A DNA stretch of 35,935 bases from Nocardioidaceae bacterium (GTDB lineage: Bacteria; Actinomycetota; Actinomycetes; Propionibacteriales; Nocardioidaceae): positions 1 to 35,935 of the forward strand of contig JACCXZ010000032.1 of the NCBI GenBank assembly GCA_013696745.1, given 5' to 3'. This document shows positions 8,067-33,006 of this stretch, one piece after another. The notes beneath the pieces are model-generated. The model searched no databases and had not been told where the DNA came from. It saw only the letters and a list, made by a program, of their open reading frames with translations. The position numbers were made by a program, and so were the translations under genes. The first letter of the stretch is position 1. Each line of letters starts with the position of its first letter.

Positions 8067-9440
8067 ATGAACACGGACACGTCAGGTGCCCAGCAGGACC
8101 CGCCCGCGACCCCACGGCCCGAGCGGCCCGCCATCCCCCGGCGCGCAGTGGCCCGGACCGCCCGGATGGCCAGCCTCCCCCTCGGCTTCGCCGGACGGGC
8201 CACGCTCGGGCTCGGACGCCGACTCGCCGGGGCCAACGCGGACGCGGTGAGCCGCGACGTACAGCAGCGCACCGCCGAACAGGTGTTCAAGGTGCTCGGC
8301 GAGCTCAAGGGCGGTGCGATGAAGTTCGGCCAGGCGCTGAGCGTGTTCGAGTCCGCATTGCCCGACGAGCTCGCGGCGCCGTACCGGGCGGCCCTCACCC
8401 AGCTGCAGGACGCCGCTCCCCCGATGGACTCCGGAACGGTCCACCGGGTGATCGCCGCCGAGCTCGGCCCCCGCTGGCGCGAGCAGCTCGTCGAGCTCGA
8501 GCCCGACCCGGCCGCTGCGGCGTCGATCGGACAGGTCCACCGCGGCCGGTGGCACGACGGCCGTCGAGTCGCGGTGAAGGTGCAGTACCCCGGTGCCGGG
8601 GAGGCGCTGTCCTCGGATCTGCGCCAGATCGCGCGGGTGGCCAGGATGGTCGGCCCCCTCGCCCCGGGGATCGAGGTCATGCCACTCGTCGACGAGCTGC
8701 GCGCCCGCATCGAGGAGGAGCTCGACTACCGGCTGGAGGCACAGGCTCAAGCCGTGTTCGCGGCCTCGTACGCCGCGGATCCCGACGTCGAGGTGCCAGC
8801 GGTCGTCGCACACACCTCCAAGCTGCTGGTGACCACCTGGATGGACAGCACCGGATCACTGGCCCGGCTGATCGCCGAGGGGTCCCAGGCCGACCGCGAC
8901 CACTTCGGTGAGCTGTACGTGCGCTTCCTGTTCAGCGGTCCGGTCCGAACCGGGTTGCTGCACGCCGATCCGCATCCCGGGAACTTCCGGATGCTGCCCG
9001 ACCGGCGGCTCGGCGTCGTCGACTACGGTGCGGTCGCGCGCCTGCCCGAGCACGGTCTGCCCAAGCCCATCGGCCGGCTGCTGCGCCGTGCCGTCGAGGA
9101 CGACTACGACGCCGTGCTGCAGGGGTTGCGCGACGAGGGCTTCATCCGCCGCGGCGTGGATCTGGATCCTGGTGTGCTGCGCGACTTCCTCGGCCCGTTC
9201 GTCGAGCCGGCGCAGTCCGAGACGTTCCGCTTCAGCCGGGAGTGGATGCGCGGCCAGGCGAACCGGTTGTACGACCCGAACGACGCGCTGCCGGTCTCCC
9301 TCAAGATCAACCTCCCCCCGTCGTACCTGCTGATCCACCGGGTCTGGATCGGCGGTATCGGGGTGCTGAGCCAGCTCGGCGCCCAGGCGTCGTTCCGAGC
9401 CATCTGTGCGGAGTCCCTGCCGGGTTTCGCGGACGGCTGA
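8067..9440 (+). CDS. ABC1/AarF/UbiB atypical kinase
   Basis: KxGQ-type motif GGAMKFGQALSVF, AAASIGQVHRG, VAVKVQYPG, LLHADPHPGNFRML. Confidence 0.93.
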   Translation: MNTDTSGAQQDPPATPRPERPAIPRRAVARTARMASLPLGFAGRATLGLGRRLAGANADAVSRDVQQRTAEQVFKVLGELKGGAMKFGQALSVFESALPDELAAPYRAALTQLQDAAPPMDSGTVHRVIAAELGPRWREQLVELEPDPAAAASIGQVHRGRWHDGRRVAVKVQYPGAGEALSSDLRQIARVARMVGPLAPGIEVMPLVDELRARIEEELDYRLEAQAQAVFAASYAADPDVEVPAVVAHTSKLLVTTWMDSTGSLARLIAEGSQADRDHFGELYVRFLFSGPVRTGLLHADPHPGNFRMLPDRRLGVVDYGAVARLPEHGLPKPIGRLLRRAVEDDYDAVLQGLRDEGFIRRGVDLDPGVLRDFLGPFVEPAQSETFRFSREWMRGQANRLYDPNDALPVSLKINLPPSYLLIHRVWIGGIGVLSQLGAQASFRAICAESLPGFADG

Positions 9441-9460
9441 GCGCGGGCACTACGGACCCA

Positions 9461-9535
9461 CCATGGCAAGTTGTCACTTCCCATGGTTTGCGTCCCATGG
9501 GAAGTGCAGTTTCCCAGGGGACCCTGGTAAACCGC
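9461..9535 (+). repeat. Two-hairpin intergenic repeat, copy 1
   Basis: ccatggcaagttgtcacttcccatggtttgcgtcccatgggaagtgcagtttcccaggggaccctggtaaaccgc; 68/75 identical to 31801-31875 by manual alignment. Perfect 12-bp inverted repeat CACTTCCCATGG (9475-9486)/CCATGGGAAGTG (9495-9506). Confidence 0.9.
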
Positions 9536-9642
9536 GCCACGCAAGACAGAGCACGACGCCAAGCGGCTGGTGGGTGCCGCGTAGGCTGTCCGACCGGGCC
9601 GGAGCATCCGGCGTGCAGGGCTGTGCAGACGGGCGGGTGAAG

Positions 9643-10866
9643 ATGGCGCAGGGGCCGCACCGGGTCTTCCTCCACATCGGCGCTCCCAAGACCGGGACCA
9701 CGTACCTGCAGCACATGCTGTTCGGCTACCGCACGCAGTTGCTCGCCGACGGGGTGAGCTACCCCGCCGACAGCTACGACGACCACTTCTTCGCCGCCGT
9801 CGACCTGCAGGCCCTCGACTTCAGCGGTGTGCCCCGTCCGGAGGCGGCAGGCGCCTGGGACCGGCTCACAGCGCGAGTGCACGCCTGGGAGGGCGTCAGC
9901 GTCGTCTCGCACGACGTGCTCGCCGGCGCCACGCCGGAGCAGGCCCGCCGGGCGATCGCCTCGTTCGCCCCCGCCGAGGTGCACGTGGTGCTGACCGCCC
10001 GTGACCTCGGTCGCCAGCTCCCCTCGCACTGGCAGGAGGACGTCAAGCACGGTCAGACCCGTACGTTTCGACACTGGTACGACGCCATCGCTCGACGTGA
10101 GGACGACGACTGGCAGCTGCGCTGGTTCTGGCGGGTCGAGGACCTGCCCGACATGCTGCAGCGTTGGGGCTCGACGTTGCCGCCCGAGCGCGTCCACGTC
10201 GTCACCGTCCCCCACCCCGGTGCGGACGAGGGAACGCTCTGGGCGCGCTTCGCCTCGGTCCTCGGTGTCGACCGCGACGACCTCGACCTCGACGTCGTGA
10301 GCCATCTCAACCGCGGCCTCGGCGTCGCCGAAGTGGCGTTGCTGCGGACCATCGCCGGGTTGCGGGACGACCGGCTCGACCAGCGCGCCTACGAGCATCT
10401 GGTCAAGGGTGTCCTGGCGCACGAGACCCTCGAGCGGGTCGATCCCGCCGGTGCGTTCGGGTTGCCACCGGACCTGCTCCCGCACGTCCGGGAGACGTCC
10501 CAGCGCTGGGTCCAGGCCATCTCCGCGGCAGGGTACGACGTGGTCGGTGACCTCGACGAGCTGCTTCCCACCGATCGCAAGGACGGCCGGCTCGACCCGG
10601 ATGCCGCCGATGCGGCCGACATCGCCCGCATCGGTGCCTTCGCGCTGTACGAGACGACCGTACGACTGGCTCAGGAGCGGGAGGCAGCAGCCGAGCATGC
10701 CCGAGCGCTCCAGCGGGAGCTGTCTGCCGCGCACGAGGTGATCGCCGAGCACGAGGGGCTGCCTGCTGGTGAGCGGGTACGCCGCACGGTGGTGGAGATC
10801 GGGCGAAGGAACCGTGCCGTCGACGCCCTTCTCGGGACCTACCGGCGGCTCCGTCGTCGACCTTGA
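9643..10866 (+). CDS. Sulfotransferase-like P-loop protein
   Basis: HRVFLHIGAPKTGTTYLQHMLFGYR resembles the 5'-PAPS-binding loop; in-frame ATG at 9643. Confidence 0.7.
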   Translation: MAQGPHRVFLHIGAPKTGTTYLQHMLFGYRTQLLADGVSYPADSYDDHFFAAVDLQALDFSGVPRPEAAGAWDRLTARVHAWEGVSVVSHDVLAGATPEQARRAIASFAPAEVHVVLTARDLGRQLPSHWQEDVKHGQTRTFRHWYDAIARREDDDWQLRWFWRVEDLPDMLQRWGSTLPPERVHVVTVPHPGADEGTLWARFASVLGVDRDDLDLDVVSHLNRGLGVAEVALLRTIAGLRDDRLDQRAYEHLVKGVLAHETLERVDPAGAFGLPPDLLPHVRETSQRWVQAISAAGYDVVGDLDELLPTDRKDGRLDPDAADAADIARIGAFALYETTVRLAQEREAAAEHARALQRELSAAHEVIAEHEGLPAGERVRRTVVEIGRRNRAVDALLGTYRRLRRRP

Positions 10867-12020: not shown

Positions 12021-12060
12021 AGCGTACGCCCCCGGCGAACGGCCGCGCAAACGAATTACC
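12021..12060 (-). promoter_or_regulatory. Candidate whiB7 promoter with short AT-rich motif upstream of -35
   Basis: Minus strand: ggtaattcgt-TTGCGC-N18-TACGCT; the AT-rich part overlaps the uvrD2 stop codon. Confidence 0.4.
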
Positions 12061-14179
12061 GCAACTCTCGATGAACTTCTGCGGGCCGCTTCACCCGCGC
12101 GTCACCGGCGCCGCACATCGACAAAACGTCCTCGCCGTACTTGTCCAGCTTGGCCTTGCCGAGCCCGGGGATCGCGAGCAGCGAGCGGGAGTCCGCAGGC
12201 CGCGACTCCGCGATCGCGGTGAGGGTCGCATCGGTGAACACGCAATAGGCCGGAACCTTCTGCTCACCGGCCCGCTCGGCCCGCCAGGCACGCAGCTGCT
12301 CGTACAGCTGCTCGTCGTAGCTGGCTGGGCAGTCGTCACAGCGACCGATCTTGCGCTCGGCCGCGGACGACAGCAGGCCTCTGCACGTGCGGCACCGGGC
12401 CGGTGCCTTGACCGTGCGGCCCGACTTCGCTCCCCGGCGACCGCCTGCCGCCTCGGCGCCCGCTCCGGGCAGGATGCCATCGAGGAAGCGGGTGGCTCCC
12501 CGGTTGCCCCGCGAGCCCGGCGATCGGGCCGCCGCCCACGACACGTGCAGCGTCGTCCGGGCCCGGGTGAGCCCGACGTAGAACAGCCGGCGCTCCTCCT
12601 CGACCGCCTCAGCAGTGGAGGCGTACACGATCGGCACCGTGCCCTCGTGCATGCCGGCCATGAACACGGTCTCCCACTCCAGGCCCTTGGCGGAGTGCAT
12701 CGTGCTCAGCGTGACCCCTTCGGCGACCGGTGCATGCTGGGCCTGGGCCCGCCGCGCGAGCTCGGCGGCCAGCGCGGGCAGGTCGGCTGCAGGCTGCTCG
12801 GCGGCGAAGTCCTGCGCCATCGTCACCAGCGCCTGCAGGGACTCCCAGCGGTTGCGTTGCGCTCCGGCCGCCGCTGGTGCCTCCGGGCGCCAACCCATCG
12901 TCGACAGGACGGAACGGGTGTCTGCGACCAGGTCGGACGTGACCTCAGCGGCCCGTGCGGCGCCGCGCAGCAACGTGACCGCCTGGCGCACCTCGGGCCG
13001 CTCGAAGAAGCGCTCGACGCCGCGCACGACGTACGGGATCCTGCGATCGGTCAGCGCGTCCTCGTAGCCCTGGGACTGGGCGTTGATCCGGAACAGCACG
13101 GCGATGTCCCGCAGCGCATGTCCGTCATCGCGCAGGCGCTGGATCCGGGCGGCGACGTCGTCGGCCTCGGCCACCTCGTCGCTGTGCCCGGCGAACGTCG
13201 GCTCCGGACCCGCCGCACGTTGGGCACGCAGCACCACTGCAGGGGCCGGCGACCCGTTGGACGGCCGGCGGCCGTGCGCCACGGCGTTGGCGGCCTGCAC
13301 GACCTGCGGGGTCGAGCGGTAGTTTCGGACCAGCTCGATCCGCTGGGTGCCCGGGTGCTTGGCGGCGAAGCCGGTCAGGTAGTCGGCGCAGGCGCCGGCG
13401 AAGGAGTAGATGGTCTGCATCGGGTCCCCGACGACGCACAGTTCGTCGCGGCCACCGAGCCACAGGTCGAGCAACGCCACCTGGATCGGGCTGACGTCCT
13501 GGAATTCGTCCACCACGAACCATTTGTACTGTCGGCGCACCGTGGCAGCGACCCGCTCGTCCTCGGTGAGCAGCGCCGCGCAACACAGCAGGACGTCCTC
13601 CATGTCGATGCGCCCACGGTCGCGCTTGACCTGCTCGTACGTCGCGAAGATCCGCCCGGCCTCGGTCAGGTCGACACCCGCGGGGCTGCGTCCGGCCCCG
13701 TCGGCTCGGCGTGCGTAGTCCTCGGGCGACACGTTGCTCACCTTGGCCCACTCGACCTCGCCGGCGAGGTCACGCAGCAGGGCGGAGTCGGCGCGGACGC
13801 GGCAGCGGGAGGCCGCCTCGGCGAGCAGGGAAAGCTTGGAGGCCATCAACTCGGGCAGCTCGCCTCCGAAGACCTGCGGCCAGAAGTAGCGAGCCTGCCG
13901 CAGGGCGGCGGCGTGGAACGTGCGGACCTGGACCCCCGGGGTGCCGAGCTGGTGCAGCCGGGAGCGCATCTCCCCCGCGGCGCGCGTGGTGAAGGTGACA
14001 GCGAGCACCTCGGTAGGGACATACATGCCCTGCTCCACGCCGTGCGCGATGCGGTGCGTGATCGCCCGCGTCTTGCCCGTGCCGGCACCGGCGAGCACGC
14101 ACACCGGCCCGCGCAGTGCGGTGGCGACGGCTCGCTGCTCAGGGTCCAGCCCCTCCAGCAGTCGGTCGGCATCGCTCAC
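12056..14179 (-). CDS. uvrD2: ATP-dependent DNA helicase UvrD2
   Basis: Walker A CVLAGAGTGKTRAITHRIAHG; tetracysteine CRTCRG...RCDDC; C-terminal HRDC-like LTAIAESRPADSRSLLAIPGLGKAKLDKYGEDVL. Confidence 0.92.
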   Translation of the reverse strand: MSDADRLLEGLDPEQRAVATALRGPVCVLAGAGTGKTRAITHRIAHGVEQGMYVPTEVLAVTFTTRAAGEMRSRLHQLGTPGVQVRTFHAAALRQARYFWPQVFGGELPELMASKLSLLAEAASRCRVRADSALLRDLAGEVEWAKVSNVSPEDYARRADGAGRSPAGVDLTEAGRIFATYEQVKRDRGRIDMEDVLLCCAALLTEDERVAATVRRQYKWFVVDEFQDVSPIQVALLDLWLGGRDELCVVGDPMQTIYSFAGACADYLTGFAAKHPGTQRIELVRNYRSTPQVVQAANAVAHGRRPSNGSPAPAVVLRAQRAAGPEPTFAGHSDEVAEADDVAARIQRLRDDGHALRDIAVLFRINAQSQGYEDALTDRRIPYVVRGVERFFERPEVRQAVTLLRGAARAAEVTSDLVADTRSVLSTMGWRPEAPAAAGAQRNRWESLQALVTMAQDFAAEQPAADLPALAAELARRAQAQHAPVAEGVTLSTMHSAKGLEWETVFMAGMHEGTVPIVYASTAEAVEEERRLFYVGLTRARTTLHVSWAAARSPGSRGNRGATRFLDGILPGAGAEAAGGRRGAKSGRTVKAPARCRTCRGLLSSAAERKIGRCDDCPASYDEQLYEQLRAWRAERAGEQKVPAYCVFTDATLTAIAESRPADSRSLLAIPGLGKAKLDKYGEDVLSMCGAGDARVKRPAEVHRELR

Positions 14180-14279
14180 GCGGCATCACTCACGGGGCTC
14201 CTCGGCGTACGGATCGGAATAGCTGTGGACGGACGACGTTGAACTCGATGACCACACTAGATCCCGGGAGGGACAACGC

Positions 14280-14537
14280 ATGTCTGCCCAATCCACGTCG
14301 GCGAAGTTCACGATGTACTCCACGCCGTGGTGCGGCTACTGCCACCGGTTGAAGAGCCAGCTCGAGCGTGAGGGCATCGAGTTCGACATGGTCGACATCG
14401 AGCAACAGCCCGACGCCGTCGCGATCGTGGAGCGGGTCAACCACGGCAACCAGACGGTGCCCACGCTGGTGTTCAGCGACGGCTCCGCGCTGACGAACCC
14501 CTCGGTCGCGCAGATCAAGGCGCAGCTCGCCTCCTGA
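14280..14537 (+). CDS. mrx1: Mycoredoxin (glutaredoxin-like)
   Basis: FTMYSTPWCGYCHRLKSQLEREGIEFDMVDIEQ...NHGNQTVPTLVFSDGSALTNPS; CGYC active site. Confidence 0.9.
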   Translation: MSAQSTSAKFTMYSTPWCGYCHRLKSQLEREGIEFDMVDIEQQPDAVAIVERVNHGNQTVPTLVFSDGSALTNPSVAQIKAQLAS

Positions 14538-14546
14538 GCCGGCTGC

Positions 14547-15458
14547 TCACCAGTTGCCAGGGACCTCGCCGCCGTACCACGTCTCGATCAGCCAGCGCGA
14601 GATCGACAGCCTGCCGGGCAGGCGGACGCTACCTCCGGCAGCCAGCGCCGTGAGCTGCTCACGGGTCACCCAGCGTGCCTCGGCGATCTCCACGCCGTCC
14701 ACGTCGATGTCGGTGCCCTCCGCCACCGCGAAGAAGCCGACCATCAGGCTCGACGGGAACGGCCACGCCTGGCTCGCCCCGTAGCTGACCGTCGAGATCG
14801 TGATCCCGACCTCCTCCGCGACCTCACGACGCACCGCGTCCTCGAGGGCCTCCCCCGGCTCGACGAAGCCGGCCAGGGTGGAGAAGCGTCCTGCCGGCCA
14901 TACCCGCTGACGGCCGAGCAGCGCCCGGTCGACGGAGTCGATGACCAGCATGATCACGGCGGGGTCCGTCCGCGGGAAGTGTGACGCCTGACAGACCGGA
15001 CAGCGCCGGACGTGACCCGCATCGGCGGCCACGGTCTCGGCTCCGCAACGTGCGCAGCGCGGGTGGGTGCGGTGCCAGTTGGCCAGGCCGGCTGCGTGTG
15101 CCATCAGGCTGCCGCCCAGCGGATCGAGCGCCGCGGCCGCCTCCCGGGTGCTCACCCGACCGGACTGCTCGGGTACCTCGTCCACCAGCACTGCGAGGTA
15201 TGTCGGCCCGCCGTCGCCCTCGCCCAGTACGGCTCGGTCGCCTGGCGGGGCCTGGGACGGCGGCAGCAGCTCGAGGTGTTCGCCATCGAGCACGACGTGT
15301 CTGCCGTCGGTGACCACGACGCACGGCTCGTTCTGCTTCCACAGCCCGGTCGCCCAGTCGTCGTCGCCCCGTACCAGGCCGAGACGGTCGTGCCACGCGC
15401 GCGCGAAGGCGAACTCGGGGGTCAGCGTGCGCGGGTCGGGTGGCGAGGCGTCGGGCAC
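14547..15458 (-). CDS. nudC: NAD(+) diphosphatase NudC
   Basis: Zn ribbon CARCGAETVAADAGHVRRCPVC; Nudix box GFVEPGEALEDAVRREVAEEVGI; SQAWPFPSSLMVGF motif. Confidence 0.95.
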   Translation of the reverse strand: MPDASPPDPRTLTPEFAFARAWHDRLGLVRGDDDWATGLWKQNEPCVVVTDGRHVVLDGEHLELLPPSQAPPGDRAVLGEGDGGPTYLAVLVDEVPEQSGRVSTREAAAALDPLGGSLMAHAAGLANWHRTHPRCARCGAETVAADAGHVRRCPVCQASHFPRTDPAVIMLVIDSVDRALLGRQRVWPAGRFSTLAGFVEPGEALEDAVRREVAEEVGITISTVSYGASQAWPFPSSLMVGFFAVAEGTDIDVDGVEIAEARWVTREQLTALAAGGSVRLPGRLSISRWLIETWYGGEVPGNW

Positions 15459-15631
15459 GCGGAGCAGCCTACGGCGGGCCGGCCTCGGCGAGCCGGACAG
15501 CCGGCGCTGGAGCGCGCCTCGATTTGGTCACGGGGTGGCATCGTGACCGTAGGTTCGTAGCGGGGCCACCCCGTACCGAATGGGTGAGGCAGTGGAGCCA
15601 CCCAGTCACGTCGGCTGGATACGCTGCCGCG

Positions 15632-16348
15632 ATGAGCACCCACATCGGCGCGGCGGCAGGTCAGATTGCACCCCGCGTCCTCATGCCGGGCGATCCGCTT
15701 CGGGCACAGTGGATCGCCGAGACCTTCCTCGAGGACGCCACCTGCGTGACGCGGGTGCGCAACATGCTCGGCTTCACCGGGACGTACCGCGGGGAGCCGG
15801 TCAGCGTGCAGGGCTCGGGCATGGGGCAGCCGTCGATCTCGATCTATGCCACCGAGCTGTTCACCGAGTACGACGTGCAGCAGGTGGTACGCGTCGGGTC
15901 CTGCGGTGCACTCGCCGAATCGCTGGCGCTGCGCGACCTGGTGATCGCGACCAGCGCCGCGACGGACTCCGGCGCCAACAAGTTGCGATTTCACGGCCTG
16001 GATTTCGCGCCCTGCGCTGACTTCGGGCTGCTGCGTGCGGCGCACGACTCGGCGGTCGGACGCGGTCTCGCCCCTGCAGTCGGGCAGATCTTCTCCTCTG
16101 ACACGTTCTACAACCCGCGACCCGAGCTGACCGACCTGCTCGCCGACCACGGTGTGCTCGCCATCGAGATGGAGGCGAACGCGCTCTACACCCTCGCCGC
16201 CGCCCACGGCCGTCAGGCGCTCGCGATCTGCACGGTGTCCGACCACATCAGGACCGGCGAGCAGACCACCGCAGCCGAACGCGAGCAGACCTTCGGCGAC
16301 ATGGTCGAGGTGGCACTCGACGCCATCCTGGCCGTGCCACTGCGCTGA
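15632..16348 (+). CDS. deoD: Purine-nucleoside phosphorylase, DeoD type
   Basis: RVLMPGDPLRAQWIAETFL, VQGSGMGQPSISIYATEL, VVRVGSCGAL, VLAIEMEANALYTLAA, TVSDHI. Confidence 0.93.
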   Translation: MSTHIGAAAGQIAPRVLMPGDPLRAQWIAETFLEDATCVTRVRNMLGFTGTYRGEPVSVQGSGMGQPSISIYATELFTEYDVQQVVRVGSCGALAESLALRDLVIATSAATDSGANKLRFHGLDFAPCADFGLLRAAHDSAVGRGLAPAVGQIFSSDTFYNPRPELTDLLADHGVLAIEMEANALYTLAAAHGRQALAICTVSDHIRTGEQTTAAEREQTFGDMVEVALDAILAVPLR

Positions 16349-16423
16349 CGATGGCCGGTGAGGGGTCCCGGTCAGTCGCCTACGCCGACGACCAGTTCCC
16401 CGACGGCTGAGCACGGCGACAGC

Positions 16424-19400
16424 TCAGCCAGCCGCACGTCGAAACAACTCCTCGATACCGGCGCGGTCCGGCAGCCCCGCGGGCCGCACCACCTCCGCGT
16501 CGCGCACGTAGTAGAACCCCGCGCTCACCGCCTGCAGCGGCAGGCCGTGCATCTCCGCCCACGCGAGCCGGTAGATCGCCAGCTGCAGCGGGTCGGCGTC
16601 CTGGCGTCGCCCGGTCTTCCAGTCGATGACCTCGAAACCGTCGGCCGTCGGGTACACCGCGTCGATCCGACCGGTGACGACCTGCCCGGCGAGCAGCAGC
16701 GTGAACCCGGCCTCGACCGCATGCGGCACCCGGTCGCCGAACGGGCCTTCCGCGAACGACTTCTTCAGCAGCTCGAGGTCCTCGTGGTCGGTGATGTCGG
16801 TATCGGCCCGCCCCGGGAGGTCGGCAGGATCCAGCAGCGACTGCTGACCGACGTGTGACTCCACCCAGCTGTGGAAGCGGGTCCCGAACCGGGCAGCCGG
16901 CGACGGGAGGCGCGGCATCGGCCGGGCGAAGTCGCGAGCCAAACCGGCCGGGTCGTCACGCAGCCGCTGCACCGTGGTGGTCGACAGGGAGGGTGGCAGC
17001 TCGACCTGAACTCGGCCTCGAGCGGCGGCTTCCGCCTCGTTCACGAGCTGGGCGATCTCGCTGTCCAGCGCCGCCAGGTCGAGTCCGGTCTCGACACGCA
17101 CCGCCTGCCGGACCTCCTCGGACTCCGGCGAGCGGTCCGCACCCAGAGGCCCGGTCGGCTCGTCCATCGCGGCCCGCACCGCGTCCGCAGCGACCTGTCG
17201 GCGAGCGATGCGGTCCTCGTCCAGGCTGCCTGGGAATCGGACCGGCGTCGCCGACTCCAGCACCGGGTTGCGGCTGCCGTCGACGGGCGCCTCGGCGTGC
17301 CATGGCGCCACGTCGGTCTGGGGGTCGACCGCGCCGTGCAGCTCGAGCAGGTACGGCGACGGACCTCGCGGCGTGGCCTGCGTGCGACCCCACCAGTGCC
17401 CGCTGCCCACCAGCAGCTCCTTGGCGCGGGTCACGGCGACGTAAACCAGGCGCCGCTCCTCCAGCTCCGCGTGCTCGCGGCACTGAGCCGAGTAGTCGTT
17501 GATGCCCCGCGTGCTCCACTCAGCGAGCACCGGGAGCCTCCTGCGGTCGCCGCGCAGTGGCCACGGCACATCCTGGGCCGACCACTGCCAACGGGAGCGG
17601 GCCTTGGCCGACGGGAAGACGCGGGCGGAGAGGAACGGCAGCAGCACACCGCGCCACTCCAGCCCCTTGGCCGCATGCACGGTGAGCAGCTTCACCGAGT
17701 CCGACCCCGAGGGCTCGGCGAGCGTCATCCCCCGGTTGTAGAGCGCTTCGGCGTCCAGGTAGGCGACCAGGCCGTGGACCGACGCGAACGGGTCGTGTGC
17801 CGCGAAGTCCGCCACGGTCTCCAGCAGCAGCGCCACGTTGTCGGCGGCTTGGTGGGCGTCCGGGCTGCTCGATGCCGCCAGCTCGACGTCGAGACCGAGG
17901 GTGAGGACCACACGGCGGACCAGGTCGCTCAGCGGTTCGCCGGCCGCCCGGCGCAGCATCGACAGCTCCGCAGCCAGAACTGCGAAGCGTGCGCGAGCTT
18001 GCGGCGAGTACGCCTTGTCGCCGGGGTCGGCCAGTGCGTCGGACAGCGAGGCGACCTCGCTCGGGTCGATGCCGACCACAGCGGCATCCAAGGCAGCGGC
18101 CAGATCGTTCCCGACCGGGCCGGCGCCACCGCGTACCAGCTCCTCGGAGCGCTCACCGAGCAGCGCGAGGTCGCGTACGCCGACCCGCCAGCGCGGACCG
18201 GTCAGCAGACGTAGCAGCGCGGCGTTGGCGGTCAGGTCGCAGACCACCCGCAGGGTGGCCACGACGTCGGCGACCTCCGGCTGGCTCAGCAGGCCGGACA
18301 GCCCGACCACCTCGGCCGGGATGCCCGACCGGCGCAACGCCCCGGTCAGCTCCGCGAGCTCGGCGCGGTTGCGGACCAGCACCGCGATGTCGGACCACCG
18401 CGCGGGCGGCCCGGTGCGGCTGAGATCCGCCCGCATGCGCCGCACCGCTCCGGGGGCCCAGGCGATCTCGTCGACGACACTTTCGTGCAGCGCCAGGGTG
18501 ATCCCGCCCTGCGGGGCACCGGCACGCACGCACAACTGCTCGGCACCCTGGTGGGCGGCGTACAGCGGGCCGGCGAGCCTGTTGGCGGCCTCGAGGACGC
18601 GCACGGCACACCGGCGGTTGACCATCAGCGGGTACGTGGGCGCGGCCATGCCGTCGCGCTGCGGGAAGTGCACGCCGAAGTCGTCGATGTTGTCGACCGA
18701 GGCCCCCCGCCAGCCGTAGATGGCCTGGCACGGGTCGCCGACCGCGGTCACGGCATGCCCGCGACCGTCCTGGCCGGGACCGCCGCTGAAGAGACCCTGC
18801 AGCATCCGGCGCTGGGAGACCGAGGTGTCCTGGTACTCGTCCAGCAGCACGGCCTTGAACCGGGCCCGCTCGCTGAGGCCGACCTCGGGGCACTCGATCG
18901 CCAGCCGGGCGCCGGCGGCCATCTGGTCGGAGAACTCAGCGATCTCCTCGTCGGCCTTCAGGGCACGGTAGGCAAGCACCAGCTCGAGCAGCTCGTCGCG
19001 CTCACACGACGTCGCCACAGCCTCGTTGATCTTGACCAACGGCTTGCCGCTCTTGCCGAACGGCTGCTGCTGCAGGGTCTCTCGCAGTGCTCGGTCGTGC
19101 TCACGCAGCTGCTGCACGCTGACCAGGTGGTCCTGCAGCTGCGCGTCGAGGGACAGGATCGCCGTGACCACCGTGGACAGGTTGCCGCTGAGCCGCTCGA
19201 CCGGGTGCGACGAACCGGTGACCACCCGGGCGGCGAGCTGGAAACGGGTGGCGTCGGAGACGACCCGCAGGCCCGGCTCAAAGCCGAGCCGCAGCCCGTG
19301 CTCGGTCAGCAGGCCGCCGGCGTACGCGTGGTACGTGGAGACGGTCGGCTCCGCGAGCTCCTCGTCGAAGCGAGCCGTACGGGTCGTGCGGGTCGTGCGG

Positions 19401-19720
19401 GTCGCGGACGCGAGCCTGTCCAGCGCCCCCCGAATCCTCGCGTCGAGCTCGCCGGCTGCCTTGTTGGTGAAGGTCAGCCCGAGAAACTCGCAGGGGCGGA
19501 CCCGGCCGGTGCCGACCAGCCACACCACGCGCGCGGTCATCACCGTGGTCTTGCCGGACCCGGCACCGGCGACTACCACGCCCGGCTCGAGAGGTGCGGT
19601 GACGATCCGCATCTGCTCGTCGCTCATGTCGATCCCGAGCACGTCGCGCAGCTGATCGGGATCGCGCAGCACCGGGCGCGGCCCGGACACCGATGGTGAC
19701 AGGACAGCCGGCTCAGTCAT
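16424..19720 (-). CDS. adnB: UvrD-like helicase/RecB-nuclease fusion, AdnB-type DNA end-resection subunit
   Basis: Walker A VVAGAGSGKTTVMTARVVWL; C-terminal RecB-type nuclease GTRFHSWVESH...TGRIDAVYPTADGFEVIDWKTGR...LQLAIYRLAW; 8-bp overlap with adnA. Confidence 0.9.
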   Translation of the reverse strand: MTEPAVLSPSVSGPRPVLRDPDQLRDVLGIDMSDEQMRIVTAPLEPGVVVAGAGSGKTTVMTARVVWLVGTGRVRPCEFLGLTFTNKAAGELDARIRGALDRLASATRTTRTTRTARFDEELAEPTVSTYHAYAGGLLTEHGLRLGFEPGLRVVSDATRFQLAARVVTGSSHPVERLSGNLSTVVTAILSLDAQLQDHLVSVQQLREHDRALRETLQQQPFGKSGKPLVKINEAVATSCERDELLELVLAYRALKADEEIAEFSDQMAAGARLAIECPEVGLSERARFKAVLLDEYQDTSVSQRRMLQGLFSGGPGQDGRGHAVTAVGDPCQAIYGWRGASVDNIDDFGVHFPQRDGMAAPTYPLMVNRRCAVRVLEAANRLAGPLYAAHQGAEQLCVRAGAPQGGITLALHESVVDEIAWAPGAVRRMRADLSRTGPPARWSDIAVLVRNRAELAELTGALRRSGIPAEVVGLSGLLSQPEVADVVATLRVVCDLTANAALLRLLTGPRWRVGVRDLALLGERSEELVRGGAGPVGNDLAAALDAAVVGIDPSEVASLSDALADPGDKAYSPQARARFAVLAAELSMLRRAAGEPLSDLVRRVVLTLGLDVELAASSSPDAHQAADNVALLLETVADFAAHDPFASVHGLVAYLDAEALYNRGMTLAEPSGSDSVKLLTVHAAKGLEWRGVLLPFLSARVFPSAKARSRWQWSAQDVPWPLRGDRRRLPVLAEWSTRGINDYSAQCREHAELEERRLVYVAVTRAKELLVGSGHWWGRTQATPRGPSPYLLELHGAVDPQTDVAPWHAEAPVDGSRNPVLESATPVRFPGSLDEDRIARRQVAADAVRAAMDEPTGPLGADRSPESEEVRQAVRVETGLDLAALDSEIAQLVNEAEAAARGRVQVELPPSLSTTTVQRLRDDPAGLARDFARPMPRLPSPAARFGTRFHSWVESHVGQQSLLDPADLPGRADTDITDHEDLELLKKSFAEGPFGDRVPHAVEAGFTLLLAGQVVTGRIDAVYPTADGFEVIDWKTGRRQDADPLQLAIYRLAWAEMHGLPLQAVSAGFYYVRDAEVVRPAGLPDRAGIEELFRRAAG

Positions 19721-22700
19721 CGTCGTCCGCTGCGACCCGACGGTCGACCGAGAGCAGCGAGGCGCCCGCGGCCTGGGCCGGACAACAGCTGGTGAAGTCG
19801 CACGAGCGACAGTGGCTGCCCGTCGTGGCGGCGAAGTCCTCGGCCCGCACGGTCGCGACCACCGATGCCAGCTGCTCCTCGGCGAACGAGTTCTCGGTCA
19901 ACGACGGCTGGTGCTGAACCTTCGTCGCACCGCGCACCGACGTGCGCAGCTGAACCAGCTCGGCGCCAGCGAGGCGGGTGGGGCCGGGCACCAGCTCGTC
20001 GACCGCACCGTGCCGCACGGCGAGCTGGTAGACGCCGAGCTGGGGGTGCTCGGCGATGTCGGAGCTCTTGGGAGCCTGCCGCCCGGTCTTGAAGTCCACC
20101 ACGACCACCCGTCCGTCGGCGTCGACCTCCACCCGGTCCATCGACCCACGCAGCACGACCGGCTGACCGGCCACCGCGAAGTCGACCTCGAACGCGTGCT
20201 CGGCGGCGAGTGGCTCACGTCCGCGGTCGGCCAGGTGCCAGGAGACGAACCGCTCGAGTGCGGCCTCGGCCTCGACGCGCTCGGCCGCACCGGCCCAGGG
20301 CACGGCGAAATCCAGCTGGTGCCACACCCGGTCCAAGCATGCCCGCAGCTGCGCCGGCTCGGCGTCCACGTCGCCCGCCGTCACCGCCGCCACCAGCGCA
20401 TGCACGACGCTGCCGAAGCCGGTGGCGGTGGTCTGTGCGGTGGCGCCGCCGGCCTCGCGCCCGAGGAACCAACGCAACGCGCAGCTCGAGACGGCGTCCA
20501 CCGAGCTGGCCGACAATGCGAGGGCGGCATCCACCGGGCGTACGGGCACCTCGGACTCACTCGGCGGCAGGACGCCCCACCAGCGGTCTGGGTCGGCTGC
20601 CGGCACCAGTGCGCCGGCGGGAGCCGGCAGTGCGCCGATGGTGGCGATCCGGCGGGCCAGGGCCACTTGTACCTCCGGGTCATCGGTCGCCTCCACCTGA
20701 CGGCGCAGCTCCCCCAGCAACCCACGCAGTGACAGCGGGCGACGCGGGCGGCCCCGGGCGGCGTCCCGCAGGCGTTCGACCGCGGTTGGCTCCTGCGCAT
20801 TCACTGCTCCGGGCCCGGGCTCGACCAGCTCGGTCAGGAAGCGGGAGGGCTGGTCGCCGTCGTCGCCCTGACTGGCCACGGCGGTCAGGACGACACGTTG
20901 CCGGGCCCGGGTCACCGCGACGTAGAACAGTCGACGCTCCTGCGCCAGCAGGGCAGCTCGCGACGGCGACGCGGGCGCCTGGTCGCCTCCCTCGAGCAGG
21001 CGGTCTGCCTGCAGCAGCGATCCGCGGTGCCGTACGTCGGGCCACACGCCTTCCTGGACGCCGGCCACCACGACCACCCGCCACTGCAGCCCCTTGGAGC
21101 GGTGAGCGGTGAGCAGCCGGACTGCCGGGGTTCGGCGGGTGCCGAGGTCGGCAAGGCTCTGACCCGGGATCTGGTGGGCGTCGATCTCGTCCAAAAAGGC
21201 CCGCACACCGCGCCGTTGCTGCCGCTCCTGTGCCCGCGCCGCCTGGTCGAACAGGCTGCACACGGCGTCGAGGTCGTGGTCGGCTCGCACGGCGCCGACT
21301 CCACCGGCATCCACCTCGGCGGCCAACCGGCGTGGCCACCGCGAGCCGGTCCACAGGTGCCACAGGACCCGCTCGACCGGCTCCCAGGCCTCGACCATGT
21401 CCGCCGCCTGCTCCAGCAGGGTCGCGAACCGGGCGACCGTCGCGGCCTCCGGGGAGCGCAGTCCCGTCACCACCGAGGAGTCGGTGACGGCCTCGGCCAG
21501 CAGGACCGAGGATGGCCGGTGGTCGTGGCGACGCAGCTGCTGGGCGAGCCGGCGGACCTGGCGCGGGTCCATCCGGCACAGCGGCGAGGTGAGCAGTGCC
21601 TCGGCGTCGAGGCGGGGCCCCAACGGCTCGGGTGCCACGCGCATCGCCACGATCTCGAGCACCGCCCGCACGGCCATGACAAGGGTCCTGACGGCTGGTT
21701 CGGCGTTCAGCGGGATCTCGTCACCGGCGACCTCGACCGGCACGCCGGCCGCGACGAGCGAGCGGCGCAGCCGCGGGATGGACCCGCTGGTTCGTACGAG
21801 CACCGCCATCTGCGTCCACGGCACTCCGTCGTCGAGGTGGGCGCGGCGCAGCAGGTCGGCGATGTTCTCCGCCTCGGCGGCGGGACTGGTGAAGGTGACG
21901 ACCTCGACCGTGCCGTCTGCGTGCGGCGGGTCCAGCGGCTGCGGTGAGCGGAACGCGGTCCGGGTGGCTTCGTCGAGGCCCGGTGGCAGCGGCAGCCGGG
22001 CGGCGACCGTACGGGAGGCGGCCAGGATCCGCGCTCCGAAGCGCCGGGTGCAGGACAGCGCCAAGACCGGTGCCGGTGTCCCCTCGCACGTCGGAAAGTC
22101 GGTGGGAAAGCCCAGGATGCCGCGGACGTCGGCGCCGCGGAAGGCGTAGATGGACTGGTCGGGGTCCCCGACGGCGACCAGGTCGCGGCCGTCGCCGGCG
22201 AGCCCGCGCAGCAGGCCGACCTGCGCCGGGTCGGTGTCCTGGTACTCGTCGACGACGACGAGCCCGAACTCCCGACGCAGCACCGCCTGGTGCTCGGGGG
22301 TGCCGGAGATCAGCCGGGCACGGTGCACGATCTCGGCGTGGTCGACGAGCCCCTGGCGATCCATCACCTGGAGGTACTCCTCGAGGAACCCTCCTGCCGC
22401 GACCCAGTCGGGGCGTTCGTGCGCCCGACCGGCCGCACTGAGCTGGTCGGGGTCCAGACCGAGCGCGCGCACCTGCGCGAGCATCCGGGACAGCTCCGGA
22501 GCCATGCCCTTGGCCGTGACCGCGGCCCGCAGGCTGCGCGGCCAGGTTTGCGGCCCGTCCTCGAGGCTGCCGTCGAGCAGCTCCCGGATGCGCACGTCCT
22601 GCTCGGCCGCGCTCAGCAGCTGCAGGGGCGACGTGTAGTCCGCAGCGTCACTGAAGCGCCGGACCAGCGCGTAGCAGAAGGAGTGGAACGTGGTGGCCGT

Positions 22701-22985
22701 CGGCGGGGCGGAGCTCTGGCCGAGTCGCGCGAGGATCGCCGAGCGCAGCTGATCGGCCGCCTTGCGGCTGAAGGTCAGGAGCAGCACCTGCTCGGCACGC
22801 AACCCACGGCGCTGCACCCGGTCGGCCACCAGCTCCACCAGGGTGGTCGTCTTGCCGGTGCCAGGACCGGCCAGCACCAGCAGCGGACCGCCGGGATGAT
22901 CAAGCACCGCACGCTGCGAGGCGTCCAGCTCCGGCGGGCCCGCCGGGGCGGTCGGGGGACGACGAAGCACGTACGAACGAGGCAT
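19713..22985 (-). CDS. adnA: UvrD-like helicase/RecB-nuclease fusion, AdnA-type DNA end-resection subunit
   Basis: Walker A LVLAGPGTGKTTTLVELVADRVQRRGL; nuclease VVVVDFKTGRQAP...QLGVYQLAV; C-terminal Cys cluster CRSCDFTSCCPAQ. Confidence 0.9.
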   Translation of the reverse strand: MPRSYVLRRPPTAPAGPPELDASQRAVLDHPGGPLLVLAGPGTGKTTTLVELVADRVQRRGLRAEQVLLLTFSRKAADQLRSAILARLGQSSAPPTATTFHSFCYALVRRFSDAADYTSPLQLLSAAEQDVRIRELLDGSLEDGPQTWPRSLRAAVTAKGMAPELSRMLAQVRALGLDPDQLSAAGRAHERPDWVAAGGFLEEYLQVMDRQGLVDHAEIVHRARLISGTPEHQAVLRREFGLVVVDEYQDTDPAQVGLLRGLAGDGRDLVAVGDPDQSIYAFRGADVRGILGFPTDFPTCEGTPAPVLALSCTRRFGARILAASRTVAARLPLPPGLDEATRTAFRSPQPLDPPHADGTVEVVTFTSPAAEAENIADLLRRAHLDDGVPWTQMAVLVRTSGSIPRLRRSLVAAGVPVEVAGDEIPLNAEPAVRTLVMAVRAVLEIVAMRVAPEPLGPRLDAEALLTSPLCRMDPRQVRRLAQQLRRHDHRPSSVLLAEAVTDSSVVTGLRSPEAATVARFATLLEQAADMVEAWEPVERVLWHLWTGSRWPRRLAAEVDAGGVGAVRADHDLDAVCSLFDQAARAQERQQRRGVRAFLDEIDAHQIPGQSLADLGTRRTPAVRLLTAHRSKGLQWRVVVVAGVQEGVWPDVRHRGSLLQADRLLEGGDQAPASPSRAALLAQERRLFYVAVTRARQRVVLTAVASQGDDGDQPSRFLTELVEPGPGAVNAQEPTAVERLRDAARGRPRRPLSLRGLLGELRRQVEATDDPEVQVALARRIATIGALPAPAGALVPAADPDRWWGVLPPSESEVPVRPVDAALALSASSVDAVSSCALRWFLGREAGGATAQTTATGFGSVVHALVAAVTAGDVDAEPAQLRACLDRVWHQLDFAVPWAGAAERVEAEAALERFVSWHLADRGREPLAAEHAFEVDFAVAGQPVVLRGSMDRVEVDADGRVVVVDFKTGRQAPKSSDIAEHPQLGVYQLAVRHGAVDELVPGPTRLAGAELVQLRTSVRGATKVQHQPSLTENSFAEEQLASVVATVRAEDFAATTGSHCRSCDFTSCCPAQAAGASLLSVDRRVAADDDD

Positions 22986-30934: not shown

Positions 30935-31705
30935 TCAGCTGCGCGCCTCGAGCAGGTTCGCGGCCAGCTGGCGATAGGCCCCGGCACCACGGTGGCTGCG
31001 TGCCGTGCTCAGGATGGAGCGTCCGACCGCCGGCGCCTCAGCGAACTTGATCGTCTTGGGGATCGGCGGCTCGAGCACCGGCAGCTCGTACGTCTCGCTG
31101 ATGGCCTCCAGCACGGTGCGCGCATGCTTCGTACGTCCGTCGAACAGCGTCGGCAGGACGCCCATCACCGACAGGCCACGGTTGGTGAAGCGGCGGACGT
31201 CGTGCACCGTGTCCAGCAGCTGGCCGACCCCGCGGTGCGACAAGGTCTCGCACTGCAAGGGGATCATCACCTCGTCGGCGGCCGAGAGCGCGTTGACCGT
31301 GAGGACCCCGAGGGACGGCGGGCAGTCCAGCAGGATCCAGTCGTACTCCTCGCTGACGTCCTCCAGCGCCGTCCGCAGGACGTGTTCTCGTCCGGTACGG
31401 GTCAGCAGGGCTGCCTCCGCCCCGGCGAGCTCGATGGTGGCCGGCAACAGGTCCGGACCGTCATCGGTGCTCATGATGACGTCGGCTGCGGACTTCTGCC
31501 CGAGCAGTACCTGGTGGACGCTGACGTCGAGATCCTCCGGGTCGATGCCCAGGGAGAAGGTCAGGCACGCCTGAGGATCGAGGTCGACCAGCAGTACCCG
31601 CCGCCCGAGCTCGACCAGGGCGGCTCCGAGGGAGGCGACGCTCGTCGTCTTCGCGACGCCACCCTTCTGATTGGTGACGGCGACGGTGAGACTCACCCGG
31701 GTCAT
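30935..31705 (-). CDS. ParA/Soj-like Walker-type ATPase
   Basis: VAVTNQKGGVAKTTSVASLGAALVELGRRVLLVDLDPQACLTFSLG; DWILLDCPPSLGVLTVNAL. Confidence 0.93.
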   Translation of the reverse strand: MTRVSLTVAVTNQKGGVAKTTSVASLGAALVELGRRVLLVDLDPQACLTFSLGIDPEDLDVSVHQVLLGQKSAADVIMSTDDGPDLLPATIELAGAEAALLTRTGREHVLRTALEDVSEEYDWILLDCPPSLGVLTVNALSAADEVMIPLQCETLSHRGVGQLLDTVHDVRRFTNRGLSVMGVLPTLFDGRTKHARTVLEAISETYELPVLEPPIPKTIKFAEAPAVGRSILSTARSHRGAGAYRQLAANLLEARS

Positions 31706-31800
31706 TCTGCCGCAGGTCGGATCAGCCCCAGACCACTGGCTCAACGCCGCGGCACAACCGTCGCTTCGGGCGCACTCCCCATGGCTTCCAGCACCACCTC

Positions 31801-31875
31801 CCATGGCAAGTTGTCACTCCCCATGGGTTGCGTCCCGTGGGCAGTGCGGTTTACCAGGGGACCCTGGGAAACCGC
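31801..31875 (+). repeat. Two-hairpin intergenic repeat, copy 2
   Basis: ccatggcaagttgtcactccccatgggttgcgtcccgtgggcagtgcggtttaccaggggaccctgggaaaccgc; aligned without gaps to 9461-9535. Second hairpin GCGGTTTaCCAGGG-ga-CCCTGGgAAACCGC. Confidence 0.9.
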
Positions 31876-31899
31876 ACCCGAAGCGGCCCGACCGCGGTG

Positions 31900-33006
31900 T
31901 CAGGACAGGTCGACGATGGCGGCCACGGGGCCGCCGCCCTCGGGACCCTGGTGGGCAGCCGACACGGACACGAACACGGCGGGGTCGCCGGTGACAGCGG
32001 CCGTGACCCCGCCGACGCACGCCTTGATCTGGCGGTGCCAGTGCACGTCGGAGTCGTCGAGCATCGCGTTGCGGCGGCCGCGTACCGTGCCGTCCTGGCT
32101 CGCCTCGCACTTGAGGAAGACGTTGACCAGACGACCGTCGAGATCGCTGGTACGGGGGCGCTCTGGCAGGTCCAGGCCGGCGTCCTTGATCGCGGCCCAG
32201 ATGCCGTCGGCGTCGAGGGCGTCCTGCATGACCGAGTGACCGATGCGGTATCTGCCGCCGACCCCGCGGGCGTTGCCGACCACGACGACCTGCGCCCGGT
32301 CGAGCTCCACGCCCGAGGAGCAGGACGCCACCGCGGAGTACAGCGACCGGTCGTGCATGACGTCGGCGTCGGTGGGCAGCTCGATCTCACCCAGCGCGAC
32401 GGCGATGCCGAGCGCGGTGACGCCGTTGGACAGGTCCATGGACTCGTGCGTCTGCTCGGTCCACACCGTCTCGCCACGGCTCTTGGCGTCGCGGATGGTC
32501 TGGATCGTCAGCAGCGGCGTCTTGGTCTGGACGTAGTGCACGTCGGCCACGTCGGTGATCCCGGCCCGCTGCATCGCGACCTTCACTGCGTCGGCGACCT
32601 TGCTGATCATCGGGGTGCGGCCGATTTCCTCCGGCAGCAGCCGCTCGCTCATCGCGTAGCCGACCGCGAGCCGCGGTTCGTCGCTCAGCACGGCTCGGTC
32701 GTCGGGCACCGTGGCGAACACCGTGGCGTGCGGGCTGATGACGCCGTCGGTGCCACCGGACCACACGATCGGGATCTCCTGGACGTCCTGCGCCGAGCGG
32801 GTTCCCTTGGCCGCGATCACCTCACGGAAGGCCCGGTCGGCGATGATCCGGGTGTAGTCGTTGACGCCGCCGTTGCCCTCGGTCTTGCCGATGACGGCGA
32901 TCACCCGGTCGGCCTCCAGGACCCCGTTGTCGATGAGCTTCTCGAGTTCGCTCGCGTCGGCGACGGAGTGGATCGGGATCTTGCGTACTTCGATGGCAGC
33001 GGGCAC
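31900..33006 (-). CDS. Ring-opening amidohydrolase (cyanuric acid hydrolase/barbiturase, AtzD/TrzD family)
   Basis: [26 protein letters not shown]...[113 protein letters not shown] start at 33006 with SD gaaggaagg (the track start at 33069 is less likely). Confidence 0.9.

Follow-up and report, generated by a model that had tools for sequence, protein, structure and literature searches.

Dispersed two-hairpin elements at gene 3′ ends in Nocardioidaceae and their inverted pairs around a predicted AbiEi-like nuclease gene

The repeated block and its copies in the source genome

The window considered here is the whole analysed stretch of 35,935 nucleotides of contig JACCXZ010000032.1, which belongs to a member of the Nocardioidaceae (2.61 Mb in 202 contigs, 85% complete), referred to below as the source genome. 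Two copies of a hairpin-forming block lie in the window, and the following features are found at and around them.

8067–9440, + strand: ABC1/AarF kinase-like gene, upstream of copy 1 (PF03109, E=7e-54)
9455–9537, + strand: element copy 1 (model match; core 9456–9535), with the order hairpin B (HB), hairpin A (HA), tail on the − strand
9456–9471, + strand: tail (T) of copy 1, including the third arm; outer part ACCCACCATGG, inner part CCATGGCAAGT
9475–9506, + strand: HA of copy 1, 12-bp stem 9475–9486 with 9495–9506, loop TTTGCGTC
9507–9535, + strand: HB of copy 1, stem centre at 9520/9521, one C·T mismatch
9637–10866, + strand: gene downstream of copy 1, without a Pfam match
30935–31705, − strand: ParA-like ATPase gene, on the opposite side of copy 2
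31795–31877, + strand: element copy 2 (core 31801–31875)
31900–33006, − strand: ring-opening amidohydrolase gene (PF09663), its stop 22 nt from the HB end of copy 2

The stop of the AarF-like gene, at 9440, lies 14 nt ahead of the model match of copy 1, and it is the tail of this copy that faces the gene. The initial annotation had described a 75-bp block 3′ of aarF that recurs at 31801–31875 and holds two hairpins. The second copy is real, with 91% identity to copy 1 over the 75-mer and 88% over 83 nt, and both hairpins of copy 1 are present as described: a perfect 12-bp inverted repeat of CACTTCCCATGG (9475–9486) with CCATGGGAAGTG (9495–9506), and the pairing of GTTTcCCAGGG (9509–9519) with CCCTGGtAAAC (9522–9532). 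The size of the block needed revision; the 75-mer does repeat, and the element itself is longer, with a left end at about 9455/9456 and a consensus of approximately 81 nt, (G/C)ACTCCCCATGGCATGTTGTCACTGCCCATGGGTTGCGTCCCATGGGCAGTGCGGTTTACCAGGGGACCCTGGTAAACCGC. As RNA, copy 1 is more stable than its shuffles on both strands (z −2.8 on the + strand, −4.1 on the − strand). Rfam families gave no match above the gathering score anywhere in the window. Elsewhere in the window, at 12056–22985, several − strand ORFs share common repeated blocks (families D1, D2 and D4) at similar relative positions. These fit neighbouring paralogous helicase-like genes, the function being a guess.

A search of the source genome with the 75-mer returned 40 full-length matches at 82–100% identity, and a covariance model (R1) trained on 31 of its copies located 69 full-length places, all with E<=1.3e-7. 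The recurrence of the block is thus far beyond chance. Read outward from the stop of the neighbouring gene, the order is HB, HA and tail, which is the complement of the + strand given for copy 1. Within the source genome, two stem positions of HA show double changes that preserve the pairing. In HB, one pair is mismatched in 14 of the 31 copies, and the equivalent pair is the C·T mismatch of copy 1. An unconstrained RNAalifold consensus mixed the arms of HB and the tail and was set aside.

The six-base loop of HA (columns 35–40 of alignment A1) occurs in both orientations in about equal numbers overall among the copies of the source genome: TTGCGT 16 times against 14 for its complement ACGCAA, TTGCAT 6 times against 8 for ATGCAA, and TTGCCT twice against 10 for AGGCAA. 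The presence of the loop in both orientations, as though the hairpin could invert freely, suggests that the palindromic structure arises in the DNA itself.

The position of the copies was scored in fetched genome stretches, in which genes were called with the gene caller of this analysis. The element is intergenic, with 4 of the 69 copies overlapping a called gene. A gene that reads toward the HB end usually has its stop 0–50 nt from that end, and the tail end is typically farther off. In the frame of the element, the orientations of the flanking genes at the 62 scorable copies were +− for 26, −− for 21, ++ for 8 and −+ for 7.

Pairing conserved across genera and the third arm

Diverged elements were found in further genera of the family Nocardioidaceae. 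Matches to a second model, R2, are present in 154 of 347 genomes and in 18 of the 26 genera of the family. In a search at the level of the order, among the matches listed outside the family, all lie in one other family (f2). An exact scan for the HB pattern, with one genome per GTDB species, gave matches only in records of Aeromicrobium, Nocardioidaceae and Propionibacteriales.

An alignment of 35 elements across genera shows that the stems are rewritten between genera while the pairing is kept, with changes on both sides in 16 of 25 pairs. Compensatory cells numbered 115; shuffles gave 36.2 ± 5.5, and slid controls no more than 30. It had been proposed beforehand that only two copies in the genome together with none in relatives, or a lack of conserved pairing between copies, would argue against a genuine family; the copy count, the spread among relatives and the covariation all came out on the side of the element.

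The initial annotation also described three mutually complementary arms. A third arm does exist and covaries with HA between genera; its place was misjudged. The pairing first drawn for it in copy 1, between CCATGGCAAGT (9461–9471) and 9475–9486, has one pair that is formed in none of the 31 copies and two that are formed in only 5 of the 31. It is the outer tail (consensus ACTCCCCATGG, alignment columns 2–12) that forms the conserved third arm; across genomes, and despite sequence change, it is complementary to the near arm of HA, counted outward from the gene stop. The 3′ part of the tail, in the reading HB, HA, T from the gene stop outward, repeats the far arm of HA. When third arms were scored against their own HA, the mean was 22.2, as compared with 16.2 ± 0.73 in shuffles, and none of 400 shuffles scored as high. 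As the outer tail is complementary to the near arm of HA in genome after genome, this near arm has two possible pairing partners. The predicted − strand RNA fold of copy 2 makes use of the tail.

Some Aeromicrobium-like copies have a second HB where the tail would be. At one shared gene boundary, a single HB is found in G060 (L130), and the arrangement HB-HA-HB′ in G059 (L135) and G018 (L157). The difference amounts to one module cleanly gained or lost between HB copies that are nearly identical.

A predicted nuclease gene bounded by inverted element pairs

Inverted pairs of elements bound one gene of approximately 320 amino acids. Such a unit, the proposed autonomous form, is about 1.2 kb long and carries HB outward at both ends; the unit of genome G036 measures 1.24 kb and consists of two inverted elements around a single gene. 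Homologous genes in further g19 and g5 genomes, both codes standing for genera, are enclosed in the same way. In the source genome there is one unit, with a gene that starts on one contig (C76) and ends on another (C32), the two sharing an exact overlap of 127 bp. Its elements lie at C76:3838-3920 and C32:451-533, and the parts of the gene at C76:4010-4702 and C32:1-450. This gene is the only top-clade copy of the source genome and has a frameshift just before the GEFDG motif; its product may be inactive, unless the frameshift is an assembly error or another copy resides in the missing ~15% of the genome. At least one genome, G066, has elements without a top-clade nuclease.

Homologues were searched with five seed proteins (alignment A3), which had been picked since they lie between elements. 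The tests on newly found loci (25 loci, 42 flank tests and the matching of ends) rest largely on non-seed loci, with four of the seed genomes taken into the end matching. An element was present at 22 of the 25 newly found homologue loci, on both sides at 18 of them and always with HB outward; the other three are without recognisable R2 ends. Matched control loci of the same genus had an element in only 1 of 29 cases, and that match was marginal. Inverted repeats flanking the gene, detected independently of the model at E<=1e-7, were found at 26 of 28 nuclease loci and then in 39 of 42 further tests, among which one gene was entered twice (L321 and L331). Of the three tests that fell short, two (L306 and L318) concern truncated loci, and L306 has elements on both sides by R2. 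No other gene had flanking inverted repeats at 1e-6 (0 of 252). The ends of a unit best match a solo copy sampled from their own genome in 15 of 20 genomes, a figure reached in none of 10,000 permutations; in the remaining 5 of 20 units the ends do not match the solo subfamily of their own genome.

The predicted protein has an N-terminal AbiEi-like winged helix and a C-terminal domain with a predicted PD-(D/E)XK nuclease fold of the Vsr/EDxHD type. Pfam gave AbiEi below threshold only and PADLOC returned AbiEi matches, while NCBIfam and a sequence search of solved structures had no match to the protein. Its AlphaFold2 model (pLDDT 92) was matched by Foldseek to the AbiEi antitoxin 6y8q (E=5.7e-6), and both the winged helix and the antitoxin fold of AbiE are recognised in it. 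The C-terminus was matched to the catalytic domain of I-Bth0305I (3r3p) with a probability of 0.99 but an E-value of 0.28, and superposes on it at 2.7 Å with a TM score of 0.76 by target length. The residues E205, D238 and E249 are invariant in 20 of 20 aligned sequences, so that the core fold and the acidic catalytic residues of PD-(D/E)XK and Vsr-like nucleases are both found, the former in the predicted structure and the latter in the sequence. There is no AbiEii nucleotidyltransferase toxin gene beside the nuclease, as the units examined hold the nuclease gene alone. No homologue was found in phage records, and plasmid records contained four distant ones.

Distant AbiEi/DUF559-like paralogues also lie within inverted palindromic repeats, of unrelated sequence (L244, L249–L252 and L257–L266, in the source genome (G000), G036, G066, G018, G086 and G101). 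For two of these end types, solo copies occur at other places in G066 and G036, and a 480-kb portion of G066 contains dispersed ones of both (L252/L258 and L266). The element family may be one among a larger class of palindromes that bound such nuclease genes.

Mobility, known systems and interpretation

The unit of G036 is located at the 3′ end of a gene which we take from its sequence to encode 5-formyltetrahydrofolate cyclo-ligase. The same site is a plain spacer in G066 (1 nt), G074 (13 nt) and G064 (24 nt), so that the unit is polymorphic in presence with a clean empty site. In G069 and G105, the site is occupied by a different palindrome, like the ends of another nuclease lineage, that of L244/L251. 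The simplest history is an insertion of the unit in the lineage of G036, a polarity drawn from several outgroups for this one unit only. For the solo copies, G036 was compared with G066, an Aeromicrobium-like species pair with flanks approximately 90–95% identical. For 14 of the 18 copies of G036 the site was identified in G066, where 3 copies are shared, 2 persist as decayed traces and 9, at 8 sites, are absent. Given the two sites with decayed traces, the solo differences could partly be losses. Alignment by eye of several sites revealed no clean duplication of the target. At one locus of G066 (L211, about 19060–19135), an unrelated strong hairpin (AGAACCGCCCCTGACCC..GGGTCAGGGGCGGTTCT) stands where G036 has the element, which suggests the replacement of one 3′-end hairpin by another.

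The closest parallel is with the REP, BIME and REPIN palindromes of Escherichia coli, Pseudomonas and Stenotrophomonas and their RAYT enzymes. The initial annotation had suggested a REP/BIME-like mobile palindrome, and the element is of that kind, being dispersed, intergenic, 3′ of genes, high in copy number and conserved in pairing between lineages. Shared with REP/RAYT are the short, high-copy intergenic palindromes mostly found 3′ of genes, the recurrent stem mismatch, the low-copy enzyme gene within the same palindromes, and the lineage-specific subfamilies. These likenesses would also speak for elements moved by a Y1 tyrosine transposase (TnpA-REP/RAYT), since RAYT genes are bounded by their own REPs as the nuclease is by its elements. 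The Y1 family PF01797, which had been named as the possible mobiliser, has no match in the source genome or in 13 element-bearing relatives, most of them 97–100% complete, whereas control genomes were positive. A Pfam-detectable Y1 enzyme as the mobiliser is thereby refuted, and a Y1 origin in general appears scarcely credible. A GTAG (or CGTC) tag beside the palindrome defines REP/REPIN (PMC3733652, PMC8266576), and no conserved unpaired tetranucleotide of this type is found in alignments A1 and A2. The arrangement resembles REP/RAYT in function but, owing to the absence of Y1 from the 14 genomes and of the tag, is not a member of it. It differs further in its 80-nt unit of two hairpins plus tail, in its partner, a predicted PD-(D/E)XK nuclease with an AbiEi-like domain, and in its hosts, which are Nocardioidaceae and one related family.

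Other known systems share single traits with the unit. Type IV toxin-antitoxin systems of the AbiE type have the same N-terminal winged helix and AbiEi fold, and AbiEi proteins bind inverted repeats in their own promoters (PMC7319586). The nuclease unit differs from them in an added C-terminal nuclease domain, in having no AbiEii gene and in its position within inverted elements of about 80 bp. The C-terminal domain superposes on the catalytic domain of the EDxHD/Vsr-like homing endonuclease I-Bth0305I, as above; unlike a homing enzyme of that kind, the nuclease lies outside any intron or intein and has its own inverted palindromic ends and dispersed solo ends. Like the solo copies, MITEs and other small palindromic repeats (RUP, Correia/NEMIS and ERIC) are short, non-coding and similar to the ends of a larger unit. 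To our knowledge, MITEs and small palindromic repeats with a known partner depend on DDE transposases, whereas the partner here is a predicted nuclease and no target-site duplication was seen at the sites aligned.

Two further explanations bear on what the solo copies are. They could be non-mobile, conserved two-way intrinsic terminators or stabilisers of mRNA 3′ ends that selection maintains and gene conversion homogenises. The start of HB 0–50 nt behind stops, the placement of 26 of the 62 scorable copies between convergent genes, the stable RNA folds and the unrelated hairpin at one polymorphic site in a relative all agree with such a role. A U-tract is absent, however, the sequence differs from lineage to lineage, copies are polymorphic between close species, and one sequence is found, inverted, on both flanks of one particular gene family. 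A purely non-mobile role is rather unlikely on these grounds, and a terminator role and mobility may coexist. The nuclease could also be a homing-type or an abortive-infection/toxin-antitoxin gene, its palindromes being only operators or terminators and the solo copies relics of gene deletion. This would suit the fold matches to I-Bth0305I and AbiEi and the PADLOC matches, and the solo HB of G060 against HB-HA-HB′ in G018 and G059 could be read as a deletion or an incomplete gain. This explanation appears improbable: the units examined have no partner toxin gene, operators need no full outward-facing ends of about 80 nt on both flanks, and deletion would not easily give 69 solo copies against one unit, at different intergenic sites.

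The preferred reading, to which a probability of roughly two in three is given, is that the 75-bp block is a solo, non-autonomous REP/MITE-like copy, that the nuclease unit is the autonomous source and that the nuclease mobilises both. The distribution of the elements and their association with the gene are observed; protein binding, cutting and mobilisation, and any benefit to the host, are inferred. Just as inverted repeats are bound by AbiEi antitoxins, the palindromic ends would be bound by the winged helix. The predicted nuclease would cut both at or near the element, in its hairpin or cruciform form, and at target sites that follow stop codons, with repair or strand transfer installing solo ends or the whole unit. 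Copies may be tolerated behind stop codons, where they could act as two-way terminators or mRNA 3′ ends, possibly as a side effect.

The facing pair of elements around the gene of a predicted DNA-cutting protein suggests a mobile element of a kind not described before; no earlier description of the element or of the link between nuclease and palindrome was found in the open-access PMC papers searched. A wider proposal, with the chances for and against it evenly balanced, is that proteins combining an AbiEi-like domain with a PD-(D/E)XK domain, which are numerous in Nocardioidaceae and probably in other actinobacteria, serve as the enzymes of a novel class of mobile elements. Each lineage of the enzyme would have its own pair of hairpin ends, from which non-autonomous solo ends would be shed to colonise gene 3′ ends, giving a REP-like world that evolved independently of Y1 transposases.

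On that proposal, a function open to testing could be assigned to a large set of proteins labelled “AbiEi antitoxin” by homology, and many so far unexplained palindromes at the ends of actinobacterial genes would be the mobile ends of AbiEi-like proteins. If the nuclease moves the elements, the REP-palindrome lifestyle would have a second origin, from a nuclease related to homing enzymes. The family would also be a compact model in which to study how copies inserted behind stop codons come to form part of transcript ends.
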